The notes under the pieces were generated by a model that searched no databases, had not been told where the DNA came from, and saw nothing but the letters and a program-made list of their open reading frames with translations. From the NCBI RefSeq assembly GCF_900129985.1, contig NZ_FQXN01000005.1:62001-126000 (forward strand): a stretch of 64,000 nt of DNA, read 5' to 3'. The stretch comes from Thermosipho atlanticus DSM 15807. Lineage in GTDB: Bacteria; Thermotogota; Thermotogae; Thermotogales; Fervidobacteriaceae. Position numbers and translations under genes: made by a program. Shown piece by piece: positions 7,393 to 43,221 of the stretch; within the stretch, counting starts at the first letter, position 1, and the number at the start of each line of letters is the position of its first letter.

Positions 7393-8097
7393 TTATTTTT
7401 CCAACGCTAATCTTATCTTTTTATAAGGGACTTCTACCCACTCTCCGGGATGTAACCCAAAATCTTCTAATTTTAATTTCCCTATTCTTATTCTTACAAT
7501 TTCTTTATACATTAACCCAATTGCTTTAGTTATTAATTTCACCTCATGGAACTTTCCTTCTGTAATAATTATCGATATCATATCTTCATTTACTTTTTTA
7601 ATTTTAGCTGGAGCAAATTTTACTCCATTTTTTAATTCAATCCCTCTTTCAACCATTTTAATTTTTTCTTCCGTTAGTTTCCCTTCTATTCTTACAAGAT
7701 ACTCTTTCTCTATTTTTGACTTGGGGGAAATTACTTTATGAGTGAATTCTCCATCATTTGTTAATAATAGAAGTCCCCTTACATCTTTGTCTAACCTTCC
7801 AACTATATGGAGTTTTTTTAAATAAGGATGATTAATAAACTCAAATATGTTCCTTTCAAATTCAGATTTACTGGAAGTAAACCCTGCAGGTTTATACATT
7901 ACTATGTAAACTTTATGATAAGGTACTATTTCATCGTTATCCAAATAGACCTTCTGATTTTCCTCTACCTCAAATGAAGGATTTTTAATTATTTCACCTT
8001 CAACTCTAACTCGCCCATCTTTTATAAGATATTTTACTTTTTTTCTACTTCCAACACCTGCATTTGAAAGAAATTTGTCAAGCCTCATTTTATTCAA
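7393..8097 (-). CDS. RsuA/RluB-family pseudouridine synthase
   Basis: An N-terminal S4 RNA-binding domain (MRLDKFLSNAGVGSRKKVKYLIKDGRV) is followed by the synthase core with the catalytic Asp in GRLDKDVRGLLLLTNDGEF. The C-terminal motif is GKFHEVKLI. The enzyme isomerises a uridine in ribosomal RNA. 16S (RsuA) and 23S (RluB/RluE/RluF) substrates cannot be separated from sequence alone. The TTG at 8097, ten bases after AGGAGG, is the likely start. An ATG three codons later is the alternative. The gene stands alone, between glpX and a 378-bp gap. Confidence 0.9.
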   Translation of the reverse strand: MNKMRLDKFLSNAGVGSRKKVKYLIKDGRVRVEGEIIKNPSFEVEENQKVYLDNDEIVPYHKVYIVMYKPAGFTSSKSEFERNIFEFINHPYLKKLHIVGRLDKDVRGLLLLTNDGEFTHKVISPKSKIEKEYLVRIEGKLTEEKIKMVERGIELKNGVKFAPAKIKKVNEDMISIIITEGKFHEVKLITKAIGLMYKEIVRIRIGKLKLEDFGLHPGEWVEVPYKKIRLALEK

Positions 8098-31486: not shown

Positions 31487-32980
31487 ATGAGAGAATTTTT
31501 TATTTTACTTAAATATGGTATTACTAGCTTTCAACCTCAAAGAAGTTCAACCAAAAAAAATAAATACAATTCTTTCAAAAATACCCTGATCTTATCTTTA
31601 TTTGGTTCCTTGCCTCTCGGTATCATAGTTTTTTTCTTTTCCAAAAGTTTTTTTACTAAGTTAAATTCAGTTGATCCACAAATTACTAAACTCTTATTTC
31701 TCTTTTGGATGACTATTCTTTCTTTGTTTTTTATAATTGGATACATTGGTATGGCAATGTATGCCTTTTCCAGAAACGAAGAGATAGAACTTCTTTTAAC
31801 AATGCCAATTAAAAGAAAAATTCTTACAATCTATCAAATATTTGTTTCAACAATTTCACAAATATTTGTTCTTTCATTTTACTTTTTTATCTACCTTGCT
31901 TATTCTGTAGTTACAAAAGAAAATTTATTCTTGGCAATTATTAAGATCTTCACACATTTTCTCTTTTTACTAGCCTTTTCTTCAGTTATTGCAATTTTAC
32001 TAGGTAAAAAAGCAAACAAAGGAATTGTAAGAAAAATAAACTTATTAATTTCTCTTTCAGCAATATTCTTTTATTTTTTTATTATAAGCTTTCAAAACAT
32101 AAATGTAATGGAGTTTCAAGCACTAGCTAATTTACTAAGTTTTTCAAATAAAGCTTACAATTTTCTAGTATGGAGTTTTATCTCATCTGAAACATTACTT
32201 TTTGCTTTTATAACTGCTTTCTTCCTTATAATTATTTTCTCAATTTTAGCAAATAATATGGCTTTTGAATCTATTGAAAGAAAAACTAAAAAGAACTATA
32301 AAATCAAAGGTTCAGGTTCAGTATTTAAAGCAATTTTTTATAAAGACTTTAAAGCTGTTAAAAGATACGAACAATTTTTATACTTTATATTATATCCAAT
32401 AGGCTTTGGAATTTTCTTCTCTCTTGTTAACAAAGATCCTTTTGTAACTATTTTTACTATAATTCCTATAACTACTTTTTATGTCGCGTTTGAAACTGCT
32501 ATACTAACCACTGCGGAAGTTTCAAATATTAAAATTACTCTCACATATCCTATAAAACTTACTAATTTAATGGTTCCTAAAATAAGCATTCCAACTATTT
32601 TAAATTTTTTAATCGTAGTAGGAGTGTTTCTCATTTCATCTATTAAAATGAGTCCTTCTCCACTCATTTTAATTATTCTCCCTATTTCTTTCCTTCTATT
32701 TACAATGAGTTCCATAATCGGAATGTACTTTGTCGTAAAGAATCCTCCAAGTACCGAGAACATGAGTAAAATTTTCGGGATATGGCAGACTCTAACAATT
32801 GAAGGTATTACTATGGGAACTGGTTTTGGAGCAATATTTCCATTAATATTTTTAAGTAATCCTCAGGCATCTTATTCAACCAAACTTTTTTCTTTACTTG
32901 CTATGATTGGTTCTATTACTGTTGCTGTAATTATATCAATTACCACATTTAAAAAGCTTAAACGATTATTACTATCTTAA
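31487..32980 (+). CDS. ABC transporter permease, large multi-spanning
   Basis: The 497-residue membrane protein has about ten to twelve hydrophobic helices separated by short loops. A conserved-looking cytoplasmic segment ALLAMP-like (EIELLLTMPIKRKILTIYQIFVS, about residues 94-116) is typical of ABC-2-type permeases, where LLxxP coupling motifs touch the ATPase. It is the partner of the ATPase at 30721. ATG at 31487 follows GAGGTGATCGTATA. Its stop codon overlaps the convergent RecQ-fusion gene by 9 bp. Confidence 0.85.
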   Translation: MREFFILLKYGITSFQPQRSSTKKNKYNSFKNTLILSLFGSLPLGIIVFFFSKSFFTKLNSVDPQITKLLFLFWMTILSLFFIIGYIGMAMYAFSRNEEIELLLTMPIKRKILTIYQIFVSTISQIFVLSFYFFIYLAYSVVTKENLFLAIIKIFTHFLFLLAFSSVIAILLGKKANKGIVRKINLLISLSAIFFYFFIISFQNINVMEFQALANLLSFSNKAYNFLVWSFISSETLLFAFITAFFLIIIFSILANNMAFESIERKTKKNYKIKGSGSVFKAIFYKDFKAVKRYEQFLYFILYPIGFGIFFSLVNKDPFVTIFTIIPITTFYVAFETAILTTAEVSNIKITLTYPIKLTNLMVPKISIPTILNFLIVVGVFLISSIKMSPSPLILIILPISFLLFTMSSIIGMYFVVKNPPSTENMSKIFGIWQTLTIEGITMGTGFGAIFPLIFLSNPQASYSTKLFSLLAMIGSITVAVIISITTFKKLKRLLLS

Positions 32981-35900
32981 TATTACTTTTGCTTTCTTAA
33001 ATTCCGATTTTTTTAACTTCTTTTCATTAATATCCATACAATAATTCCTTGCGATTTTTTGAATTTTTTTCAGAACTTTTTCCACAAAGAGTTTGTTTGA
33101 ATACAATGAAAAGATTCTAAGATTATTAATAACAATTTTTTCCTTTTGGTTCTTCAACCCCAAAAGAGCTTTGATTAAATATAAATATGAATTGTCTGGG
33201 TAATTTTCAAAAAGTCTTTCAATATTTGAGCTTAAAAACTCCAGTTCTTTTCTGCTTGCTTCTTCATTTATTTCATCTATAAAACTCAATAATTTTCTCT
33301 CATCTTTTTTTTGAATTATTTCTATAATTTTTCTGGTATAAATTGATTCATTAAAATAATTTAAAATATATCGCTTTACTTCTTCGTTACTACTTGCATT
33401 TCTAGCTAATTGAACTAAATTAAATAATGTTTTTCTCCTTTGTTTTTCCACTCTCTCATACATATAGTCAATTAATATCTTTATAGCTTCTTCTACTCTT
33501 ACCCTTTTATCAATATTCTCAATTTTTTTGACTCCAAATAAAAATTTATTTAAATTAAAAGCCACATCTTCCTGCGTTTTTTTCGAAATTTTTAATTCAT
33601 ATATCTTTTCATTAGCTTTATATTCCACAGTATAATTGTCAATAATCCCTAAAACGTTTAGTCTATAAAGTATCTTTTCAAAATAATTCTCCTTAGATTT
33701 CACCTCAATGAATTTGTAACTCCCTTCATTTATTGTTGAAATGTATTTCTTAATTTTTTCGTAAAAATTTAGAGTTTTTGCTATTTCATAACTTTTACCT
33801 TTAAACGAATTAAAATGAAAATGTAATTGAGAAAAAATATCATCATTTATAAATTTATAATTCTCAAATATTTTTAAAGCAATTTTATTAGAAATTTTTG
33901 TATTAAGAATAACATCAGTCAGCGCGGGATTCTTTTCTGTAAAAATCAAAAAAGAATATGATTTTTTCCTATCCCTTCCCGCCCTTCCTGCTTCTTGGTA
34001 AAAAGACTCAATAGATGAAGGAAGGTTATAATGAATGGTATATCTAATATTTGATTTATCAATTCCCATTCCAAAAGCTTTTGTTGCAACTAATAATTGT
34101 ATTTCCTCATTTAGAAACTTGGATTGTATTTCTTGTTTGTACCTATTATAATCTTTCGTTTTTAACTTTTTTGGTTTTTTACCAGAATAAATCCCTGGTT
34201 TTAAACCACAATTCTTTAATGTTTTATAAATAGAATAAACCCCATTTTCCCCGGAAATAGTGTTTGAAAAAATTATTCCAGCCACTTCAAAAGTGTTTTC
34301 TACATTTAACAACTTTGGTAACCTCTTATATAGAATATCTATTAAAACTTGCTCTTTTTCAAATGTTTTGATAACCTCCATATGTAATTCTTTTCTGTCA
34401 AATGTTTTAGGAGTTAGAATTGAAACGTTATCTTTAAGATTTAAAATCTCTTGGATATCTTTTAAAACAACATACGATGCTGTTCCTGTTAGGGCTATTA
34501 TTTTAGGGTTTTTGTCATTTACAATTTGTTTTAAATTTTTAGAAACGTTTAAATAAGATGGTCGAAAATCATGTCCCCACTCCGAGATACAATGAGCTTC
34601 ATCAATTACCAAAAAAGGTAACTTCAAGTTTATCTCATTTAATAATTTTCTAAAACTTTTTATTTGTAGTCTTTCAGGAGAAATAAATAAAAATTTATAT
34701 CTACCAAATTTTAAATCTTTCAAAATTAATTCCTTGTTTTCTTTTTTCTGATCACTGTTTATATATGCACAGGAATTTATACCTAATTCTTTTAACTTTT
34801 TAACTTGATCTTCCATCAAAGACTTTATTGGATCAACTATAACAATGGTTCCTGGTTGCAACAAAGCACTTAATTGGTATGTAAGTGATTTTCCACTTCC
34901 CGTAGGAAAAAGACCAATTACTGATTTTGTTCCTAAGATATTTGATATTAATTCCAGTTGTCCCTCTCTAAAATCTTTCTTTCTAAACACATTTTCAAGG
35001 ATAAATTTTAAAGAATTCTCTTTTTCCTTATTTATAGTATATTTTTGAATTTCAAAATCATAAAATTCTTTAGAGTTATCAGATAAAGCATAATACAATG
35101 GAAAAACTTTAATGTACTTATTATTCTTTATGTTATATTGTCTCCTCTTAACATTCATTCCAAAATCAATAATGAGGTCAAATTTTTCATCGCTTTCAAT
35201 TTCCGGCAAATTCTTGTACTGAACTTCAATTAACTCACTATTTTCCAACAAATCTACGTCTTCTTCTCTAAAAACTGTTAAATTAATTTTTGGAAATGTG
35301 GAATCAAACAATCTTGATAAATTTTTCATGTACAATGAAAAATCTTCCATAGCAATCTTTGAAAAGGAAGCATCATTTTCAATAACTGCTATTCTCCACT
35401 CTTTTTTCTCATTTAAACCACCATATACTATTTCTTTAACAAGAATTTTATGGAGCCATGAAGAAAGGATAGAAATTGCGAAAATGTTATCTTTTGAAAC
35501 CTGAAGATTTTTTAGTTCTGTTATATATCTGTCTATAGACGTTTTATTAACTTTTTCGCTTAATTTCCTCTCAAAGAAAAGTGAGGAATAAGTAGGAACA
35601 CCTCTTTGAAGAATATTATTATATATCTTTGCAGTCAAAATAAGGGGGGTGTTGTCTTCTTCTGGTGTGAAAATAAAAGAGTCATCTATAAAAAAGTTTG
35701 AAAATCCAATAAAAAAATTCATATCTAATTTACTTAGTATGTTATCAAAAAACTTTGGATAAAAAAGACAATTATAACTCGTTAATGAAGAAACCTTTTC
35801 GTTATTCCTTATAGTTTGTGCAAGAAATACTCCAATTACATCTTTTGCACCATATGCAATGAGAGTATCCGCTATTTTTTGAAATGAATTACCAGTTGTA

Positions 35901-36403
35901 ATGATATCATCAAATAAAATTACTGTTTTATTTTTAATTTTTTTAGAATTGATTTTTACATATTTCAAAATGTTTTCTTCTTTTCCAGAAATGTGCTTAG
36001 GTTTTTTTTCTTTCAAAATTCTTAAGAATTTATAACCATTATTAATACCTAGTTTTCTCGAAACAAGTTTAGAAAATTTCTTGTATCTAATTTTATTACT
36101 TTTTTTCGTAGAAGCAGGTATTACACAAAAAACTGTATCTTTATCAATATTTTTACTAAGTAAATTTGAAATAACTTTAGCGAAACTATTTATTGTCTCT
36201 CTTTCACCATTTTTAAACTTGTAAATTTTTTGCCTTAAAATTCTTTCATCATTCTCAAGTATTTCATCTGGAAAGCTATTCAAAGGATAATATTTTGCCA
36301 GAATAAAAATGTTATATCTACCAAGTTTTTCTTTAAATTTAAATTCTTTAAAATTTTTTTCTATAAGATTTGAATTTTCAAATATTTCATAGTCCGTTGT
36401 CAA
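32972..36403 (-). CDS. Phosphoribosyltransferase-RecQ helicase fusion protein
   Basis: The 1143-residue protein has an N-terminal phosphoribosyltransferase-like domain (about residues 60-215) with VFCVIPASTKKSNKIRYKKF and a PRPP loop TVILFDDIITTGNS at 160-173, resembling ComF-type proteins. After a 250-residue linker it has a RecQ-type SF2 helicase: Walker A TGSGKS at 501-506, DEAHCISEWGHDFRPS from 601, and motif VI QEAGRAGRD at 803-811. The Cys-rich zinc-binding region and the HRDC domain of standard RecQ are not visible. The last 250 residues are helical and Lys-rich. A TTG start at 36403 follows AAAGGAGATAAAGTA. It is the terminal gene of the minus-strand operon. Confidence 0.87.
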   Translation of the reverse strand: MTTDYEIFENSNLIEKNFKEFKFKEKLGRYNIFILAKYYPLNSFPDEILENDERILRQKIYKFKNGERETINSFAKVISNLLSKNIDKDTVFCVIPASTKKSNKIRYKKFSKLVSRKLGINNGYKFLRILKEKKPKHISGKEENILKYVKINSKKIKNKTVILFDDIITTGNSFQKIADTLIAYGAKDVIGVFLAQTIRNNEKVSSLTSYNCLFYPKFFDNILSKLDMNFFIGFSNFFIDDSFIFTPEEDNTPLILTAKIYNNILQRGVPTYSSLFFERKLSEKVNKTSIDRYITELKNLQVSKDNIFAISILSSWLHKILVKEIVYGGLNEKKEWRIAVIENDASFSKIAMEDFSLYMKNLSRLFDSTFPKINLTVFREEDVDLLENSELIEVQYKNLPEIESDEKFDLIIDFGMNVKRRQYNIKNNKYIKVFPLYYALSDNSKEFYDFEIQKYTINKEKENSLKFILENVFRKKDFREGQLELISNILGTKSVIGLFPTGSGKSLTYQLSALLQPGTIVIVDPIKSLMEDQVKKLKELGINSCAYINSDQKKENKELILKDLKFGRYKFLFISPERLQIKSFRKLLNEINLKLPFLVIDEAHCISEWGHDFRPSYLNVSKNLKQIVNDKNPKIIALTGTASYVVLKDIQEILNLKDNVSILTPKTFDRKELHMEVIKTFEKEQVLIDILYKRLPKLLNVENTFEVAGIIFSNTISGENGVYSIYKTLKNCGLKPGIYSGKKPKKLKTKDYNRYKQEIQSKFLNEEIQLLVATKAFGMGIDKSNIRYTIHYNLPSSIESFYQEAGRAGRDRKKSYSFLIFTEKNPALTDVILNTKISNKIALKIFENYKFINDDIFSQLHFHFNSFKGKSYEIAKTLNFYEKIKKYISTINEGSYKFIEVKSKENYFEKILYRLNVLGIIDNYTVEYKANEKIYELKISKKTQEDVAFNLNKFLFGVKKIENIDKRVRVEEAIKILIDYMYERVEKQRRKTLFNLVQLARNASSNEEVKRYILNYFNESIYTRKIIEIIQKKDERKLLSFIDEINEEASRKELEFLSSNIERLFENYPDNSYLYLIKALLGLKNQKEKIVINNLRIFSLYSNKLFVEKVLKKIQKIARNYCMDINEKKLKKSEFKKAKVILR

Positions 36404-36407
36404 TACT

Positions 36408-37406
36408 TTATCTCCTTTTGTAAATATTCTTATTCTTTTCTTTTTCTTTATACATTCTCATATCAGATATGTTAAGAGCCTCTTGTAGATTATTCGTTTC
36501 ATCTGGAAATATTGCATAACCACAAGATATACCTATATTTACCACCTGATTATCTATAGATATTTCTCTCTTACTAACAAACTGCTTAATTCTATTTATA
36601 ATTTTGTTTACTCCTTCTGTGTTTTTTGTTAAAACAACAAATTCATCTCCACCATACCTTATAACATCATCTGTAGATTTAACAATATTTTTAATTCTTT
36701 TTGATGCTATTTTCAATACCTCATCTCCAAATTTATGACCATACTTATCATTAATATTTTTAAAACCATCTAAATCACAGAATATAATTCCAATCTTTTC
36801 AGAGTTATCTATCTCACTAAATACCTTTTCCAGATAAAATCTATTCTTGAGTCCAGTGAGAGGATCAATATATTTCTGATCAAAAAGTGCTTTTATATCC
36901 AAAAATTTTGAAGCATATACAAAAAAATTCTTTTGAAAATGATCTAAAAATATTTTATTCTTAGTTGTTAATTTTTTTGGTGTGAAATATTCCAAGTTTA
37001 AAATTGTGTAAACATCAATATCTTTGAATATAAGAGGAATTCCAATCCAAGAAGATAATATATTTCCCCTAGGAATCCATATTTCTTCTTTTTGTAAATT
37101 TTTTATATATCTCCATCTTCTCTTACTTTTAACCTGCATATAAATAAATTTCTCTCTATTAGACATTTTCTCCTCAATTTTCTCAAAATTCAATCTTTCA
37201 TAATGTTTTGAATAAGCGATAAATTTCGGTTTGTTCTCTAAGATACCAACAACTGTCCAACCATCAAAATTTAAGAAACTCTTCAATTTTTCCGAAAGTG
37301 TTTCAAAAAATACAGGAACATCCCCTTTTTTTAATATTTCAATGGATGTTTCTAAAATAATTTTACTAGTAACTAAATCACAATATTCACTTAAGTTGAT
37401 TCTCAA
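36408..37406 (-). CDS. GGDEF-domain diguanylate cyclase with GAF-like N-terminus
   Basis: The 332-residue protein has an N-terminal GAF-like sensory region (about residues 25-165) and a C-terminal GGDEF domain starting DPLTGLKNRFYL. IIFCDLDGFKNINDKYGHKFGD supplies metal-binding residues and RYGGDEFVVL the active site at about 252-256. The inhibitory I-site RxxD position reads KSTD, so product inhibition may be weakened. No transmembrane helix is present. It should make cyclic di-GMP. The TTG at 37406 after AGGGTGATTAAA is preferred over the GTG at 37415 inside that site. It overlaps the rSAM gene upstream. Confidence 0.87.
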   Translation of the reverse strand: MRINLSEYCDLVTSKIILETSIEILKKGDVPVFFETLSEKLKSFLNFDGWTVVGILENKPKFIAYSKHYERLNFEKIEEKMSNREKFIYMQVKSKRRWRYIKNLQKEEIWIPRGNILSSWIGIPLIFKDIDVYTILNLEYFTPKKLTTKNKIFLDHFQKNFFVYASKFLDIKALFDQKYIDPLTGLKNRFYLEKVFSEIDNSEKIGIIFCDLDGFKNINDKYGHKFGDEVLKIASKRIKNIVKSTDDVIRYGGDEFVVLTKNTEGVNKIINRIKQFVSKREISIDNQVVNIGISCGYAIFPDETNNLQEALNISDMRMYKEKEKNKNIYKRR

Positions 37407-37411
37407 TTTAA

Positions 37412-38950
37412 TCACCCTAAAATCAAATCTTTAACCAAAAGATTTGGATATTTATTCTTTATCTCTTCTGCTTTTCTTTTTCCTATTCCTGGAATTTTCG
37501 TAAGCTCACTTAATGATAATTCATGAACTCTTAAGTTTTTTACAATTCCTGTAATTGACCTAATTCCGTGATCAATTACAATTATATCACTCTTTTCATT
37601 AAATCTCCCAATTACTCCAATAAGGATAGGATAAGTACCAAGTGGTCTTCCAAACTTAATATTCCCTTCAGAAAATTCGGGTATAACATTTTTTATTTCT
37701 GTACCTTTTGGAAATACACGTTTTATCATTTCTGAATCTATATTATTTCTAATCAAGTATTTGTAATGCTTGAACAACTTATGATTAATTTTTACTCTAC
37801 GCTTTTTAGCTAAATACCACAGTGGTGTATCTTGAACTATCATTAATTGCCTTAAATTTATTCTACGAAGTAAAATCCCCTCATCTAAATACTGTTTTAA
37901 TTTTGAATATAATAATTCATATGATTTTTTTGTTTCACCCGGAAGTCCGAATATAAAATTCAATCCTGGTAATAATTTTGGAACACCATTTACCCTAATA
38001 CCACCAATTTCATTAACTAATTTAATAGAAAAATCAATATCATCTATACCACCTTGAATATTGTTTTTTCTTCTTACAATCTCGTCAAAACTTTCTATAC
38101 CAAATGATAAAACATCACCTTCGGAATTATTTTTCACAATGATTTCTAAAGCCTTTGCACTTTCTGGATAATTCTGTGCAATAAATGCTGGATTAGCATT
38201 ATCTGTATGTAACACCTCTAGATCTGGTGCTACCCTTCTTATTCCTTCGTATAATTCTTTAATATATGCAACATTAATTCTTTTATTATTTTTCTCAAAT
38301 CCATATGCGAGTATATTTGCACTTCTTCCAAGTCTAAAAGCTTTAACTCCGTTTTTGTAAAGTTCTTCAATTTCATCAATAATATCTTTTACGGGTCTTG
38401 AAATAAAACCTGGATGTAAAATTGGTTCACTACAAAACGTACAAAAAGTTCTCCGTTCACAACCAAGAGAAACTTCTATCTCACAAATAACCTCAGGATA
38501 CCTAGGATGTTTCTTTACAATCTTAGCTCCTTCAAGAGATACTTTTCGAATAATGTTATAATCTTTTTTCTCAAAAGCATAATACACAAAATCTTCTGCT
38601 ATGTCATCTATTTCTGTGATATTTACAACTTTTACTGAAGCACCGGTTAAAATTCTTAAAGGTTTTTTATTCAATTCAAAAATTTTATTGATTTCGTTCA
38701 ATTTTATAGGAATACCACCTATGTATTTTCCAGGGACAGTAATAGAAGAAAGAATAACTAAAACATCATAGTTATTAAACCTTTGCCAAAGGTTTCTTTT
38801 TCTGATTTCATCAATTGTAATATAATCAACATCAAATCCTTTAATAAACAAAGTACCCGCTATGTAGCGGGTATATGTACTTATATATGGAGGTACTCCT
38901 AAAACTGCTGGTTCATCAACATATCCATCAATTATTACTGCTGATTTCAT
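37412..38950 (-). CDS. Radical SAM protein with CX5CX2C cluster and C-terminal HhH
   Basis: The 512-residue protein starts with a possible cobalamin-binding-like Rossmann region (residues 1-120, KSAVIIDGYVDEPAVLGVPPY). The radical SAM core has Cys164, Cys170 and Cys173 (GCERRTFCTFC), an unusual CX5CX2C spacing instead of CX3CX2C. Later strands include FGIESFDEIV and NFIFGLPGETKKSYE. The C-terminus (about 475-512) has a helix-hairpin-helix, LTKIPGIGKRKAEEIKNKYP. Similar proteins are, to my knowledge, found in archaea and thermophiles without assigned function. It lies between a secreted protein gene and the GGDEF gene, overlapping both. Confidence 0.85.
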   Translation of the reverse strand: MKSAVIIDGYVDEPAVLGVPPYISTYTRYIAGTLFIKGFDVDYITIDEIRKRNLWQRFNNYDVLVILSSITVPGKYIGGIPIKLNEINKIFELNKKPLRILTGASVKVVNITEIDDIAEDFVYYAFEKKDYNIIRKVSLEGAKIVKKHPRYPEVICEIEVSLGCERRTFCTFCSEPILHPGFISRPVKDIIDEIEELYKNGVKAFRLGRSANILAYGFEKNNKRINVAYIKELYEGIRRVAPDLEVLHTDNANPAFIAQNYPESAKALEIIVKNNSEGDVLSFGIESFDEIVRRKNNIQGGIDDIDFSIKLVNEIGGIRVNGVPKLLPGLNFIFGLPGETKKSYELLYSKLKQYLDEGILLRRINLRQLMIVQDTPLWYLAKKRRVKINHKLFKHYKYLIRNNIDSEMIKRVFPKGTEIKNVIPEFSEGNIKFGRPLGTYPILIGVIGRFNEKSDIIVIDHGIRSITGIVKNLRVHELSLSELTKIPGIGKRKAEEIKNKYPNLLVKDLILG

Positions 38951-39641
38951 CTTCTATTTCCTTCCTAGTGTCATCTGAAGCTTCTAGAATTGTTATATAA
39001 TAATTTTCAACTTGGAAATCCCCACTCTTATCAGAAATCTCAAATATAACATTTTCACCATTTTTGTCTACAGCATACACTTTTAACTTATCGTCTTCGT
39101 ATTCTACATTAAACCATAGGAGTAAATTAAAGACATCATATATTTTTTCAGGTATCTCACTTTTATCAATCAATTTAAAAGACGAAAGAATATCCTCAAA
39201 CGTATACCTTGATGGAACGTATATATATATCATTTCAGTAATAACATTTTCGAATTTTCTGATAATCTTTTCTAACATGCCATTAATTTTTATCGCTTTC
39301 ATTGTAAAAGCTTTCTCGGAAATTGTTATTTCTCCATCAACGTCCAAGGAAATTTTATGAAAATTAGCATAGTCATAGAAAATATCTTCTAAATCCTTTA
39401 TGGGAGGACATAATTTTAATTCATTTGTAGTTCCAATGTAATATTTTTCCCCCAGCTTAACCCAAACAACTTTCTTTGGACTTTTCACAAAAACAATTTT
39501 ATCTCCATCTTTGTAAAAAACTTCTTCATATCTTGTATATTGCGCATCTTTAGTGTACTCAATTACAAAACGATACGCATGATAGCTTATAGCAAAAATA
39601 TAAACCGAAAACAAAAGTAATATAACAACAAATTTCTTCAC
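38928..39641 (-). CDS. Exported protein, possibly LolA/RseB-like, in sigma/anti-sigma operon
   Basis: The 237-residue protein has an N-terminal signal peptide or anchor (KKFVVILLLFSVYIFAISY) followed by a beta-rich region (YRFVIEYTKDAQYTRYEEVFYKDGDKIVFV) that resembles the LolA/RseB-type half-barrel. I do not recognise it firmly. Its place directly after an ECF sigma and a membrane anti-sigma gene fits an RseB-like periplasmic modulator (inference). The GTG at 39641 follows GAGAGGTGAAAAA. The 3' end overlaps the radical SAM gene by about 23 bp. Confidence 0.6.
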   Translation of the reverse strand: MKKFVVILLLFSVYIFAISYHAYRFVIEYTKDAQYTRYEEVFYKDGDKIVFVKSPKKVVWVKLGEKYYIGTTNELKLCPPIKDLEDIFYDYANFHKISLDVDGEITISEKAFTMKAIKINGMLEKIIRKFENVITEMIYIYVPSRYTFEDILSSFKLIDKSEIPEKIYDVFNLLLWFNVEYEDDKLKVYAVDKNGENVIFEISDKSGDFQVENYYITILEASDDTRKEIEDEISSNN

Positions 39642-39652
39642 TTTTTCACCTC

Positions 39653-39958
39653 TCAAAATCCATCACTAACAAGACTTATATCCAAAATAGGCTCATATTT
39701 TTTTGGAATTTGTTGAGAATTTTCGTAAGCTGAGTATAACGGTCTTTGTTTTATGGTAGTAGTCATGTTATTGAATACTAAAATTGTAGCAATAACTACA
39801 ATAGCTGTTATTAATACTGCCACTCTTGCTACACTAAATCTTTTTTTCTTTTTTATCCGACTAATAATCTTTTCTTCAAGCATACTTCCTGGATTATAAT
39901 AAATTCTTTTTTCAAGAGCATTAATAGCTTTAGTATAAATTTCTTCTTCAATTCTCAT
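39653..39958 (-). CDS. Putative membrane anti-sigma factor
   Basis: The 101-residue protein has a helical cytoplasmic N-terminus (EEEIYTKAINALEKRIYYNPGSMLEEKIISRIKKK), one transmembrane helix (VARVAVLITAIVVIATILVF, about residues 45-64) and a short external tail. There is no HxxxCxxC zinc anti-sigma motif. Its ATG overlaps the stop of the ECF sigma gene in ATGA, the classic arrangement for a cognate anti-sigma factor. Assignment is from position and topology, not from sequence similarity. Confidence 0.65.
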   Translation of the reverse strand: MRIEEEIYTKAINALEKRIYYNPGSMLEEKIISRIKKKKRFSVARVAVLITAIVVIATILVFNNMTTTIKQRPLYSAYENSQQIPKKYEPILDISLVSDGF

Positions 39959-40575
39959 ATGAAACCTTCCTCCTTCAAAGCCTTTTTAAGTTTTTCTCTT
40001 GCACTATGTAATCTGCTTTTTACTGTTCCCTCAGGAATGTCCAAAATTTTGGCAATTTCACTGTATGAAAGTCCATCGATATCCCTTAGTTTAATTAAAA
40101 TTCTTTCTTTTTCAGGTAATTTTTCCAAAATATCTAAGATTTTTTCATACAGTAGTTCCTGTTGAACTTCTCTGTAAACATCTCTTCTTGGATCTACTAT
40201 TTCAATCTCTCTTTCCCCATCTTCGTCATTTTGAACACTGAAAACTTTTTCATTTTTCTTCTTATATTTTTCATACAATGTATTACAAACATTCATTGTT
40301 ATTCTATAAATCCAAGTTGACAATGATGAATTGCCTTTAAATTTCTTTATTCCTTTAAAAATTCTCAACATTACCTCTTGAACAACATCATCGATATCGT
40401 CTGTACCAAAATACGTTCTTGCAAAAGCACCTATTTTTGGTGCATATTCTCTGTATAGTTTTCTATAAGCCAATTCTTCACCACGTTTTAAGGCCTTTAT
40501 AAATTCTTTTTCATCATTCCACTTTTTTTGACTATTACTACTTTCTATATGTTCTTTTTTATTGAAAAATGTCAA
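39955..40575 (-). CDS. ECF-type RNA polymerase sigma factor
   Basis: The roughly 206-residue protein has sigma region 2 (AYRKLYREYAPKIGAFARTYFGTDDIDDVVQEVMLRIF ... LSTWIYRITMNVC) and region 4 (LPEKERILIKLRDIDGLSYSEIAKILDIPEGTVKSRLHSAREKLKK) but no region 3, as in ECF/RpoE-like factors. The exact start is uncertain. I choose a TTG at 40575 behind GGTGGTG, inside the 3' end of the DUF72 gene. It is co-transcribed with its predicted anti-sigma factor and should direct transcription in response to an envelope or other stress. Confidence 0.88.
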   Translation of the reverse strand: MTFFNKKEHIESSNSQKKWNDEKEFIKALKRGEELAYRKLYREYAPKIGAFARTYFGTDDIDDVVQEVMLRIFKGIKKFKGNSSLSTWIYRITMNVCNTLYEKYKKKNEKVFSVQNDEDGEREIEIVDPRRDVYREVQQELLYEKILDILEKLPEKERILIKLRDIDGLSYSEIAKILDIPEGTVKSRLHSAREKLKKALKEEGFI

Positions 40576-41308
40576 TTTTTTCACCACCAACAAGTTTTCT
40601 AAAAAGTAATGCATTCTTTAGTGCTTTTCCTTTGAAACAATTGTTAAAATAGATTGCTTTATCTCCTCTAAATTTTTTTATCGTTTCCCATATTTTTATC
40701 ATTTCATTTGTTGAGTAATTATAATTGTATCTTGTTTTAACATCATGTTTAAACCAATTTTTGTTTCTGCCATGAAGTCTTACATATAAGAACTTTTTTG
40801 CTTTTATAATAAAAGGATAAAAATTGGGCAATTTTGGTTGATCAATTGTTACGATCTCAAATTTTTCTGAGTCAAATGAAATCCAAGAAGCATGCCGGAA
40901 TTCGACGAACAGCCTAGGGACTTTTTCTGCTATTAAATTTACAAATAATATGTTTTCTTTTGTTTTCATAAAAGAAAATGGAAATTGTGCTAAATAACCA
41001 ATTAATCGATTTTCTTCCATAAGTATCTTTGTGTTTTCGAGAAATTTATCCAGATATTCAAGATTCTTTTCATGAGTAATCTTACCATATAATTTAACTG
41101 AAATGTAAAAATTATGCGGAAGTTTCCTCAAAATAGTTACTATAGATCTGTAGCTTGGCAATGTATAGTAAGTAAAATTAAGCTCGACTGTATTAAAACC
41201 ATAATGCATCCAATAGTAATTTAAAAGTTCTTTCGACTTTATGTTTTCTGGATAAACTTCGCCAATCCAATCGTCAAATTGATAACCGCTTGTACCAACA
41301 AAAATCAT
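40559..41308 (-). CDS. DUF72 family protein
   Basis: The 249-residue protein has the DUF72 opening IFVGTSGYQFDDWIGEVYPENI, then NTVELNFTYYTLPS, FVEFRHASWIS and, near the C-terminus, YVRLHGRN and IYFNNCFKGKALKNAL. These features define a TIM-barrel family of unknown biochemical function (YecE-like). Its ATG overlaps the stop of the UvrD-like gene in ATGA, indicating translational coupling to the helicase. This 250-residue version is of normal length. Confidence 0.88.
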   Translation of the reverse strand: MIFVGTSGYQFDDWIGEVYPENIKSKELLNYYWMHYGFNTVELNFTYYTLPSYRSIVTILRKLPHNFYISVKLYGKITHEKNLEYLDKFLENTKILMEENRLIGYLAQFPFSFMKTKENILFVNLIAEKVPRLFVEFRHASWISFDSEKFEIVTIDQPKLPNFYPFIIKAKKFLYVRLHGRNKNWFKHDVKTRYNYNYSTNEMIKIWETIKKFRGDKAIYFNNCFKGKALKNALLFRKLVGGEKIDIFQ

Positions 41309-43221
41309 TTTCCCACTCCATATTCTAGATGTTCGACAAGATGAAAAGGAATATCATCAATAAAGTTTTTTCCTCGACGCATGATGTAGTCATTTCCGTA
41401 GAATATTCGTGAAGATCCACCGACGCTGTAAATTAAATATAGGTAATCTTTTGCTCTAGTAATTGCTACATAAAATAGTCTTTCTTCTTCGTCTAAATTA
41501 TTTTCTCTTAAAGACATAATGTGTGGAAAGTCCCCGGGATTTATACTTAATATGAAAACAACTTTCCATTCAAGTCCTTTTGCTTGATGGACAGTTGTTA
41601 AAGTAACTTTTTCTTTTTCCTTGTCAGTTTCAAACTCATTTACTTGAGATATTTCGTAACTTTCACTGATTAAGATGTCTGTAAGAAAATTTTCTGTATT
41701 TTGGTAAAATCCTGCCATTTCAATTAATCTTTCTAAATCTTCTTGTCTTTCTCTGTAGTCATCATACGATCGTTCAAGATAGCTTCTATAAAATTCTAAA
41801 TAAAACTTTTCTAGTCTTTTTCCAGGATTTTCGAATTCTAAACTCTCCAGAATAATTTTCCTAACTGTTTTGAATTCCTCACTTTTTTCTTTTATATTTT
41901 CTAATTCCTTGAATGGATTTTGTGATTTGACAATGCTTTCGGCTATTCTATTGGCCTTAATCTTTCCAATACCTGATAACAATTTAAGTAATCTAGTCCA
42001 TGAAATTTTTTCAGATGGATTTACTGTAACTTTAAGGAAAGCAAGAGAATCTTTTACATGGGCTGTTTCGGTAAATCTTAGACCAGAAAATATTTTAAAA
42101 GGTATACCGTGTTTCGAAAGTTCAAGTTGGAGTTCAAGGGAATGAGCATGAGCCCTGTATAATACTGCTATATCGTTTAATGAAATACCTTGATTGTGGT
42201 AGTTTAATATTTCGTTAGCAACAAAGTCAGCTTCATCATAGTGATCGAAGACTTGAACAAGAAAAGGTTTTGTTCCTGTTTTACGTGTAGCACGTAAAAC
42301 TTTAGGGATAGCTTTTTTTGGAAGGAGTTCGTTAATAAGATTGACTATTTCTTGAGAACTGCGATAGTTTGTTTGAATTTTAAAAACTTTGGCTTCTTTT
42401 TGGAACTCAAGAACATTCTCAAATCTTGCCCCTCTGAAAGAATAGATACTTTGTGCATCATCACCAACAACCATTAAGTTACCATGTACTTCTGAAAGAA
42501 GGTTTGCTATTTGGAATTGAACTATGTTAGTATCTTGAAATTCGTCGACAAGTATCCATTTGAATCTTGAAGACTCTTTGAGTCTAATTGCTTTGTTTGT
42601 AGAAAGAATATGTAATGTATTAATTAGAAGATCATCATAGTCTAGAGAATTTTGAAGAGATTTTTCTTGTTGATATTTTATGAGTATTTGTTCTATGATA
42701 TGTTCGTGTTCAAGGAAAGCTGGGTTAAATTTAGAGATAGCTTCTCTTATGGAACAAAGTGTGTTGTTCATGTATGAATTGATTGCAAGGAGTTGCTTGG
42801 CTGTAGGCATCCGTTTTTTTTCAGATTTTGGAATTATTTGTGCTCTTGCATTTTCCATGACGTCTTTTGAATCTTCTGTATCTAGGATTGTAAAGTTGTT
42901 TTTTATACCAATAACTGTCCCATATTTTCTGAGGAATAGGTTGCAGATATGGTGAAAAGTTCCTCCTAGTAATCCTTCTAGTTTTGATTTTGATACTTGT
43001 TTTGCTCTTTGTAACATTTCTTTTGCTGCTGCTTTTGTGAAGGTAACGAGCATTATTTCAGATGGTTTTATTCCTTTACTAATTAAATAGGCTATTTTAT
43101 AGGTTATGACTCTTGTTTTTCCACTGCCTGGTCCTGCTATAACAAGTGTTTTACCCTCGGATTTTGTTACAGCATCGAATTGTTCTTGGTCAAGTTCGTT
43201 TTTTAAAATTTCTTCTATCAT
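41305..43221 (-). CDS. UvrD/PcrA-type DNA helicase
   Basis: The 638-residue SF1A helicase unwinds DNA with 3'-5' polarity in the family. Motifs are Q-motif ELDQEQFDAVTKSEG, Walker A VIAGPGSGKTRVITYK, motif Ia LVTFTKAAAKEM, motif II ILVDEFQDTN, motif III MVVGDDAQSIYSFRGA, motif IV FKIQTNYRSSQEIV, motif V VTLTTVHQAKGLEWKVVFI, and motif VI ERRLFYVAITRA-like EEERLFYVAITRAKDYLYL. It is shorter than typical PcrA (about 720 residues), lacking the extended C-terminal tail. It is the first gene of the overlapping minus-strand operon. Confidence 0.92.
   Translation of the reverse strand: MIEEILKNELDQEQFDAVTKSEGKTLVIAGPGSGKTRVITYKIAYLISKGIKPSEIMLVTFTKAAAKEMLQRAKQVSKSKLEGLLGGTFHHICNLFLRKYGTVIGIKNNFTILDTEDSKDVMENARAQIIPKSEKKRMPTAKQLLAINSYMNNTLCSIREAISKFNPAFLEHEHIIEQILIKYQQEKSLQNSLDYDDLLINTLHILSTNKAIRLKESSRFKWILVDEFQDTNIVQFQIANLLSEVHGNLMVVGDDAQSIYSFRGARFENVLEFQKEAKVFKIQTNYRSSQEIVNLINELLPKKAIPKVLRATRKTGTKPFLVQVFDHYDEADFVANEILNYHNQGISLNDIAVLYRAHAHSLELQLELSKHGIPFKIFSGLRFTETAHVKDSLAFLKVTVNPSEKISWTRLLKLLSGIGKIKANRIAESIVKSQNPFKELENIKEKSEEFKTVRKIILESLEFENPGKRLEKFYLEFYRSYLERSYDDYRERQEDLERLIEMAGFYQNTENFLTDILISESYEISQVNEFETDKEKEKVTLTTVHQAKGLEWKVVFILSINPGDFPHIMSLRENNLDEEERLFYVAITRAKDYLYLIYSVGGSSRIFYGNDYIMRRGKNFIDDIPFHLVEHLEYGVGK

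Follow-up and report, generated by a model that had tools for sequence, protein, structure and literature searches.

RecQ-like helicases joined to a phosphoribosyltransferase (PRTase) have been described before. The closest system is RqlH/RqlI (PsyrT/PsyrA), which consists of a RecQ-like helicase with a C-terminal PRTase and a DprA-like antitoxin (PMC4670107). The PRTase is the toxic part of RqlH and brings about DNA damage stress; RqlI, which resembles DprA, restrains the toxin via this domain (PMC4670107). The RqlH of M. smegmatis without the PRTase retains helicase and ATPase activity, according to work cited in PMC4670107. In ShosT/ShosA, a PRTase toxin is combined with a DprA antitoxin (PDB 8zvb-8zvd; PMC9122126), and E. 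coli equipped with a PRTase and DprA is protected from the phages T7 and lambda (PMC9122126). The fusion of RecQ and PRTase as such is already known from RqlH.

The gene studied here lies in a stretch of 64,000 nucleotides from Thermosipho atlanticus DSM 15807, hereafter the window. It occupies positions 32972..36403 of the minus strand and encodes 1143 amino acids, with a TTG start after AGGAG. The frame contains no internal stop codon. When the window was Markov-shuffled 30 times, stop-free stretches reached at most 181 amino acids, and a frame of 1143 codons is therefore far beyond chance. A sequence-only reading had described a PRTase and a RecQ-like helicase in one polypeptide, and this description is upheld by the frame and by the domain searches. 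The same reading had named, as an alternative, two genes joined by a sequencing error. No point was found in support of a sequencing or assembly joining, and the identical single-frame layout recurs in seven independent, intact copies, each from another genome; we consider an artefact practically out of the question and rejected it. The fusion is present in 8/8 genomes of two related genera (Thermosipho), the window genus and its sister genus (one copy being broken), and in 0/95 other Thermotogota, which likewise argues against an assembly error.

The fusion follows an operon-like run of genes behind a UvrD-type helicase (window 36408-43221), which is conserved in the genus. The order of the run is a DUF72-like gene, a sigma-70-type factor with a small membrane protein, a radical SAM protein and a GGDEF gene, then the fusion. 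The GGDEF gene (36408..37415, minus strand) lies 4 nt upstream of the fusion, and both are probably co-transcribed. Since the sister genus carries a GGDEF gene without the fusion, this neighbour is regarded as context only. There, the radical SAM and GGDEF neighbours run into an HD-domain gene, so the fusion was either inserted at this site or lost from it.

In the window genus, the fusion is intact and stands at one syntenic place in 4/4 genomes, and the proteins of the three sister species share 56-60% identity with it. In the sister genus, it is found in 4/4 genomes at three other places, which makes four different places across the eight genomes. Three of these copies are intact. The copy of genome G012 is broken between the PRTase and the middle part (L032 4194-7566; frames of 203 and 859 aa). 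Between the two genera, the fusion is 42-46% identical, against 80-82% for HisS; the fusion diverges fast. A profile of residues 216-460 matched 8 of the 103 Thermotogota genomes, every one a member of these two genera; the sister genera g2-g4 of the family gave no match to the middle domain. In a pattern scan for the N-terminal half across 84,980 species genomes, full coverage was seen, among the matches listed, only in Thermosipho. A plasmid search returned no record covering 80% of the fusion, and a search of a phage collection returned PRTase-level matches only. Besides the fusion, no RecQ-family protein exceeds the family cut-off in any of the eight genomes.

The N-terminal part of the protein (residues 20-215; 35759..36346, minus strand) is a predicted class I PRTase domain. 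It matches PF00156 (1.4e-7, residues 112-195) in Pfam and the comF family TIGR00201 (4e-10) in NCBIfam. Its best PADLOC PRTase match, ShosT (1.8e-16), is stronger than that to comF. The PRPP loop VILFDDIITTGNS (residues 161-173; 35885..35923, minus strand) is intact, its LFDDI and loop glycine being invariant in seven homologues. Within the genus, the PRTase is conserved as well as the motor (67% vs 66%). For residues 20-215, an AlphaFold model that drew on 17 relatives reached a mean pLDDT of 87.5, and Foldseek matched it to many PDB PRTases with a probability of 1.0. The highest TM-scores among the top PDB matches (0.50-0.54) were those of ShosT structures containing either phosphate or PRPP-Mg. 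The score to ShosT-PRPP was 0.54, and the sequence profile match to the solved ShosT was weak (E = 0.14). Because the TM-scores are moderate, the PRTase fold predicted for residues 20-215 is well supported and the exact subfamily is not. The fold proposed earlier for the N-terminal 215 residues is borne out by this model and its PDB matches.

The PRTase tree joins the window domain to stand-alone PRTases from mobile elements of Bacteroidota (support 93), within a larger set supported at 89, and near ShosT-type PRTases sitting beside DprA. ComF proteins are grouped elsewhere, as are the PRTases of RqlH. The deepest splits of this tree are weak, so that an origin of the window domain outside ComF is favoured rather than proven. 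The PRTase branch of the enterobacterial locus L044 was too long for placement. Some of the stand-alone Bacteroidota PRTases (L051 and L055, both 7450-7992) overlap a next gene that looks, by eye, like SLOG/DUF1273 and may be related to the DprA fold.

The RecQ-type helicase core (residues 461-840; 33884..35023, minus strand) has intact motifs 0-VI. Pfam reports DEAD (1.6e-24) and Helicase_C (2.8e-17), and the RecQ family model TIGR00614 matches residues 468-840 at 2.7e-87, above the family cut-off. Like canonical RecQ, the window protein possesses the aromatic-rich loop SEWGHDFRP along with the helicase motifs; it differs in lacking the zinc, RQC and HRDC regions and in its large N- and C-terminal additions. 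RecQ_Zn_bind, RQC and HRDC gave no match in the fusion up to E = 1. The protein has six cysteines (93, 212, 545, 605, 732 and 1122), only one of which follows residue 840, and a Cys4 site is hence impossible there. The earlier statement that a full set of RecQ motifs is present and that the zinc and HRDC regions are missing agrees with all these results.

The protein has three further regions. The motif AKIYNNILQRGVPTYSSLF (residues 258-276; 35576..35632, minus strand) contains an RGxPT signature common to a group of nuclease-bearing relatives. The middle domain (residues 306-460; 35024..35488, minus strand), with an IAVIExD core, was found by profiles in 8/103 Thermotogota genomes and in 14/395 genomes of a Bacteroidota sample. 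A full-length AlphaFold model built from five sequences had a mean pLDDT of 44.8 and was set aside, save for the hint that the middle domain may be alpha/beta. The C-terminal helical region (residues 841-1143; 32972..33883, minus strand) was matched by its profile in L043-L047, L128, L130 and most of L192-L205. The C-terminal 250 residues had been called unfamiliar in the sequence-only reading; about 300 residues are in fact common to a clade of RecQ-like proteins in Rhodothermota, Bacteroidota, Thermus and Enterobacteria, and the absence of zinc and HRDC regions from this end was correctly noted.

The relatives found on plasmids, on viral contigs and in the 395-genome Bacteroidota sample are helicases 1141-1737 residues long that have the middle and C-terminal regions in common with the window protein. 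RGxPT is shared as well, except by the members from Thermus and Thermomicrobium. Many of them carry a DUF559/PD-(D/E)xK-type nuclease between RGxPT and the middle domain. The clade includes proteins of Rhodothermus, Salinibacter, Haliscomenobacter and enterobacterial plasmids, annotated just as RecQ or DEAD helicases. In a careful helicase tree, the nuclease-bearing relatives and Thermosipho form one clade apart from RecQ and RqlH (support 100/99), and the Thermosipho branch (96/94) lies within the nuclease-bearing set. The window protein has the helicase core, RGxPT, middle domain and C-terminal region of this clade, but differs from it in having a PRTase and no nuclease. Only about 30 residues follow RGxPT where relatives have the nuclease; a DUF559-type nuclease gave no match in the window protein and there is no room for one between RGxPT and the middle domain. 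As its branch lies inside the nuclease-bearing set, the simplest reading of the tree is that the Thermosipho lineage lost the nuclease and carries the PRTase instead. In two other loci (L130 4357-9570 and L192 2021-6577), some 300 N-terminal residues without a Pfam match precede RGxPT. They hold a motif resembling those of SAM methyltransferases (DWGCGQG, seen in L130) and may be a third effector type.

An enterobacterial relative occurs in a cassette of E. coli, Raoultella and Klebsiella (L044 2669-8792; L166 8075-14162; L175 8075-14162), in which a DprA gene (ShosA 7e-68), a 1558-residue protein and a 162-residue coiled-coil protein follow one another. The 1558-residue protein contains HAD, a weak PRTase match (9e-4, FLIIDDVLTSG), DUF559 and RecQ parts. 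The cassette was found in 7/5426 E. coli genomes. In two of three chromosomal cases, it is flanked by a type I restriction system on one side and the MZA antiphage system on the other, and in the third it adjoins the restriction system; the E. coli relative is in a defence island.

Two kinds of partner genes accompany the fusion in part of its range. In two sister species, G010 and G014, a divergent DprA gene (323 or 349 residues, PF02481) adjoins the fusion, and its best-scoring PADLOC model is ShosA (2e-49 and 6e-57). No DprA stands beside the fusion in the window genus, G007 or G012, and no ShosA gene is present in the 64-kb window. The sole DprA of the window genome, presumably the housekeeping copy, is encoded on another contig and is 39% identical to the partner DprA of the sister species. 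Within the clade, DprA is found beside PRTase-bearing members only (the enterobacterial cassette, G010 and G014) and never beside nuclease-only members. Because the sample is small and related, this co-occurrence is taken as a lead.

The second partner is a coiled-coil protein of 106-203 aa with a C-terminal membrane helix, encoded directly behind the fusion in G007, G012 and G014 and absent from this place in the window genus and G010. The same kind of gene stands directly behind nearly all clade helicases; in Thermosipho, it accompanies the fusion in three species only. A strict coiled-coil/tail-anchor detector was run on 2351 ORFs with lengths of 90-320 aa, from loci some of which overlap or repeat; it reported 19 genes, 17 of them directly behind a clade helicase. 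Looser inspection added a coiled-coil partner in L046, L194, L195 and L205. In L128, the coil lacks a membrane helix, and in L197 no coiled-coil gene was seen behind the helicase. Genes with the coil and the C-terminal helix are located at L043 8844-9452, L044 8304-8792, L045 9657-10220, L046 9013-9891, L126 9506-10327, L130 9576-10367, L177 8654-9295 and elsewhere. The clade helicase and the coiled-coil gene apparently form a conserved two-gene module. No description of the clade or of its coiled-coil partner was found in the open-access literature searched, and the open-access texts found on defence helicases do not mention RecQ, PRTase or DprA in this sense.

Several named defence systems resemble parts of the fusion. 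ShosT is both its best PADLOC PRTase match and its top structural match, and ShosA is the best-scoring model for the DprA genes of both G010 and G014. ShosT is, however, a stand-alone protein (HAD and PRTase in enterobacterial and Prevotellaceae examples), while the window PRTase is fused to RecQ, and Pfam gave no match to a HAD domain in the window protein. DpdF is a RecQ-type helicase too, and its PADLOC models match the fusion with scores of up to 4e-94. These matches cover the motor only, and no other dpd genes were recognised beside the fusion; a DpdF identity was rejected on this coverage. Several DpdF models, among them PDLC02864 and PDLC02868, match RecQ-like helicases in general. In the E. 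coli HAD-PRTase-DUF559-RecQ protein, the match of PDLC02868 begins close to the nuclease and extends to the C-terminus, and PADLOC may therefore label members of the clade DpdF. One further locus (L068 5095-8547) carries a RecQ-like, a PRTase and a DprA gene next to one another but unfused, as a split version of RqlH-RqlI.

On balance, we lean towards the fusion being a DNA-surveillance helicase of the defence or toxin type with a PRPP-dependent effector, which would be orphaned in the window genus. Its clade would comprise large accessory helicases that couple an N-terminal effector, mostly a DUF559-type PD-(D/E)xK nuclease, to a RecQ motor. In Thermosipho, the nuclease would have gone and a ShosT-like PRTase of the ComF superfamily would occupy the N-terminus. 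The motor may engage invading or abnormal replicating DNA, and its DNA-dependent ATPase cycling may release or activate the PRTase. The PRTase would then use PRPP, either by a consumption that alters nucleotide pools or by modifying nucleotides or DNA, and phage or host replication would stop. Where present, the ShosA/DprA-type protein may restrain the fusion, either as an antitoxin or as a brake that senses DNA, and the coiled-coil protein with its tail anchor may hold the complex at the membrane. This scheme of a sensing motor and a PRTase effector is inferred by analogy. As both partners are lost in the window genus, the fusion there may be self-restrained, controlled by its operon or domesticated as the sole RecQ-family helicase. 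The partners in sister species and the defence-island setting of the clade point to a toxin or defence role, and a machine of this type is more likely than a metabolic sensor.

The main rival follows from the same loss of both partners in a genus that keeps the gene stably. The fusion could be a domesticated DNA-repair helicase which replaces a missing canonical RecQ, the PRTase acting as an allosteric sensor of PRPP or nucleotides or as an interaction fold; a sensing role had been the idea of the sequence-only reading. As the sole RecQ-family member above the cut-off, it would suit this role, and the activity of M. smegmatis RqlH without its PRTase, as cited in PMC4670107, is in line with it. 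The window-genus gene is vertically kept, tight behind the GGDEF gene and outside an evident defence island, which speaks against defence; vertical retention without partners fits a domesticated function equally well. A repair role is nevertheless rather unlikely in our view, given the fast divergence, the four loci and the broken copy, a PRTase catalytic loop conserved as well as the motor, the ShosA-type partner in two sister species and the lack of the middle domain in genera g2-g4.

Two other proposals were weighed against the toxin or defence reading. The fusion could be a toxin of the RqlH/PsyrT type with shuffled domain order. Both combine a RecQ-type motor and a PRTase with an intact loop in one chain, loci related to the window fusion hold a DprA-family partner (G010 and G014), and the PADLOC PsyrT model matches the helicase at 8.6e-90. 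In RqlH/PsyrT systems, the adjacent DprA-like gene is itself not found in every case. However, the helicase tree places the window motor in another clade, outside that of RqlH, as did an earlier quick tree with another set of rows. The PRTase is N-terminal (helicase at 461-840) and not C-terminal, and RqlH-type PRTases form their own clade. RGxPT, the middle domain and the C-terminal region are shared with the nuclease helicases, unlike RqlH, and no zinc-binding remnant is left; the coiled-coil membrane partner of the relatives and the absence of DprA in the window genus are further differences. Membership of RqlH/PsyrT appears very improbable and was rejected on the helicase tree and the domain order, though an RqlH-like mode of action is possible by analogy. 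A competence function, in which a ComF-like PRTase and a helicase would serve DNA uptake in parallel to ComFA/ComFC, draws on the comF match and on the DprA association in some species. The domain assignment in the sequence-only reading stands, but its argument that a tie to ComF, and so to DNA uptake, suggests a helicase which senses PRPP is weak: ShosT is the stronger match, and the domain lies outside the ComF set in a tree with weak deepest splits. The patchy loci, the relatives in defence islands and five other PRTase genes in the genome, one of which (~209 aa) is possibly ComF, make competence the least probable of these functions.

For the family as a whole, a wider reading may be offered tentatively. 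The clade could be a widespread, undescribed defence module with a core of RecQ-like motor and tail-anchored coiled-coil protein, and an interchangeable N-terminal effector (DUF559 nuclease, HAD-PRTase with nuclease, or a PRTase by itself). A regulator of the DprA type would accompany just the PRTase-bearing members, and Thermosipho would then represent a replacement of the nuclease by a PRTase. RecQ and PRTase were fused more than once, in different orders and with DprA-family partners in reach, and it can be argued from this that PRTase, DNA motor and DprA are one functional unit. A protein from a thermophile makes the use of PRPP by the PRTase directly testable and may suit structural work. 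The fusion also draws attention to a helicase and coiled-coil membrane module known to databases just as a RecQ or DEAD helicase.
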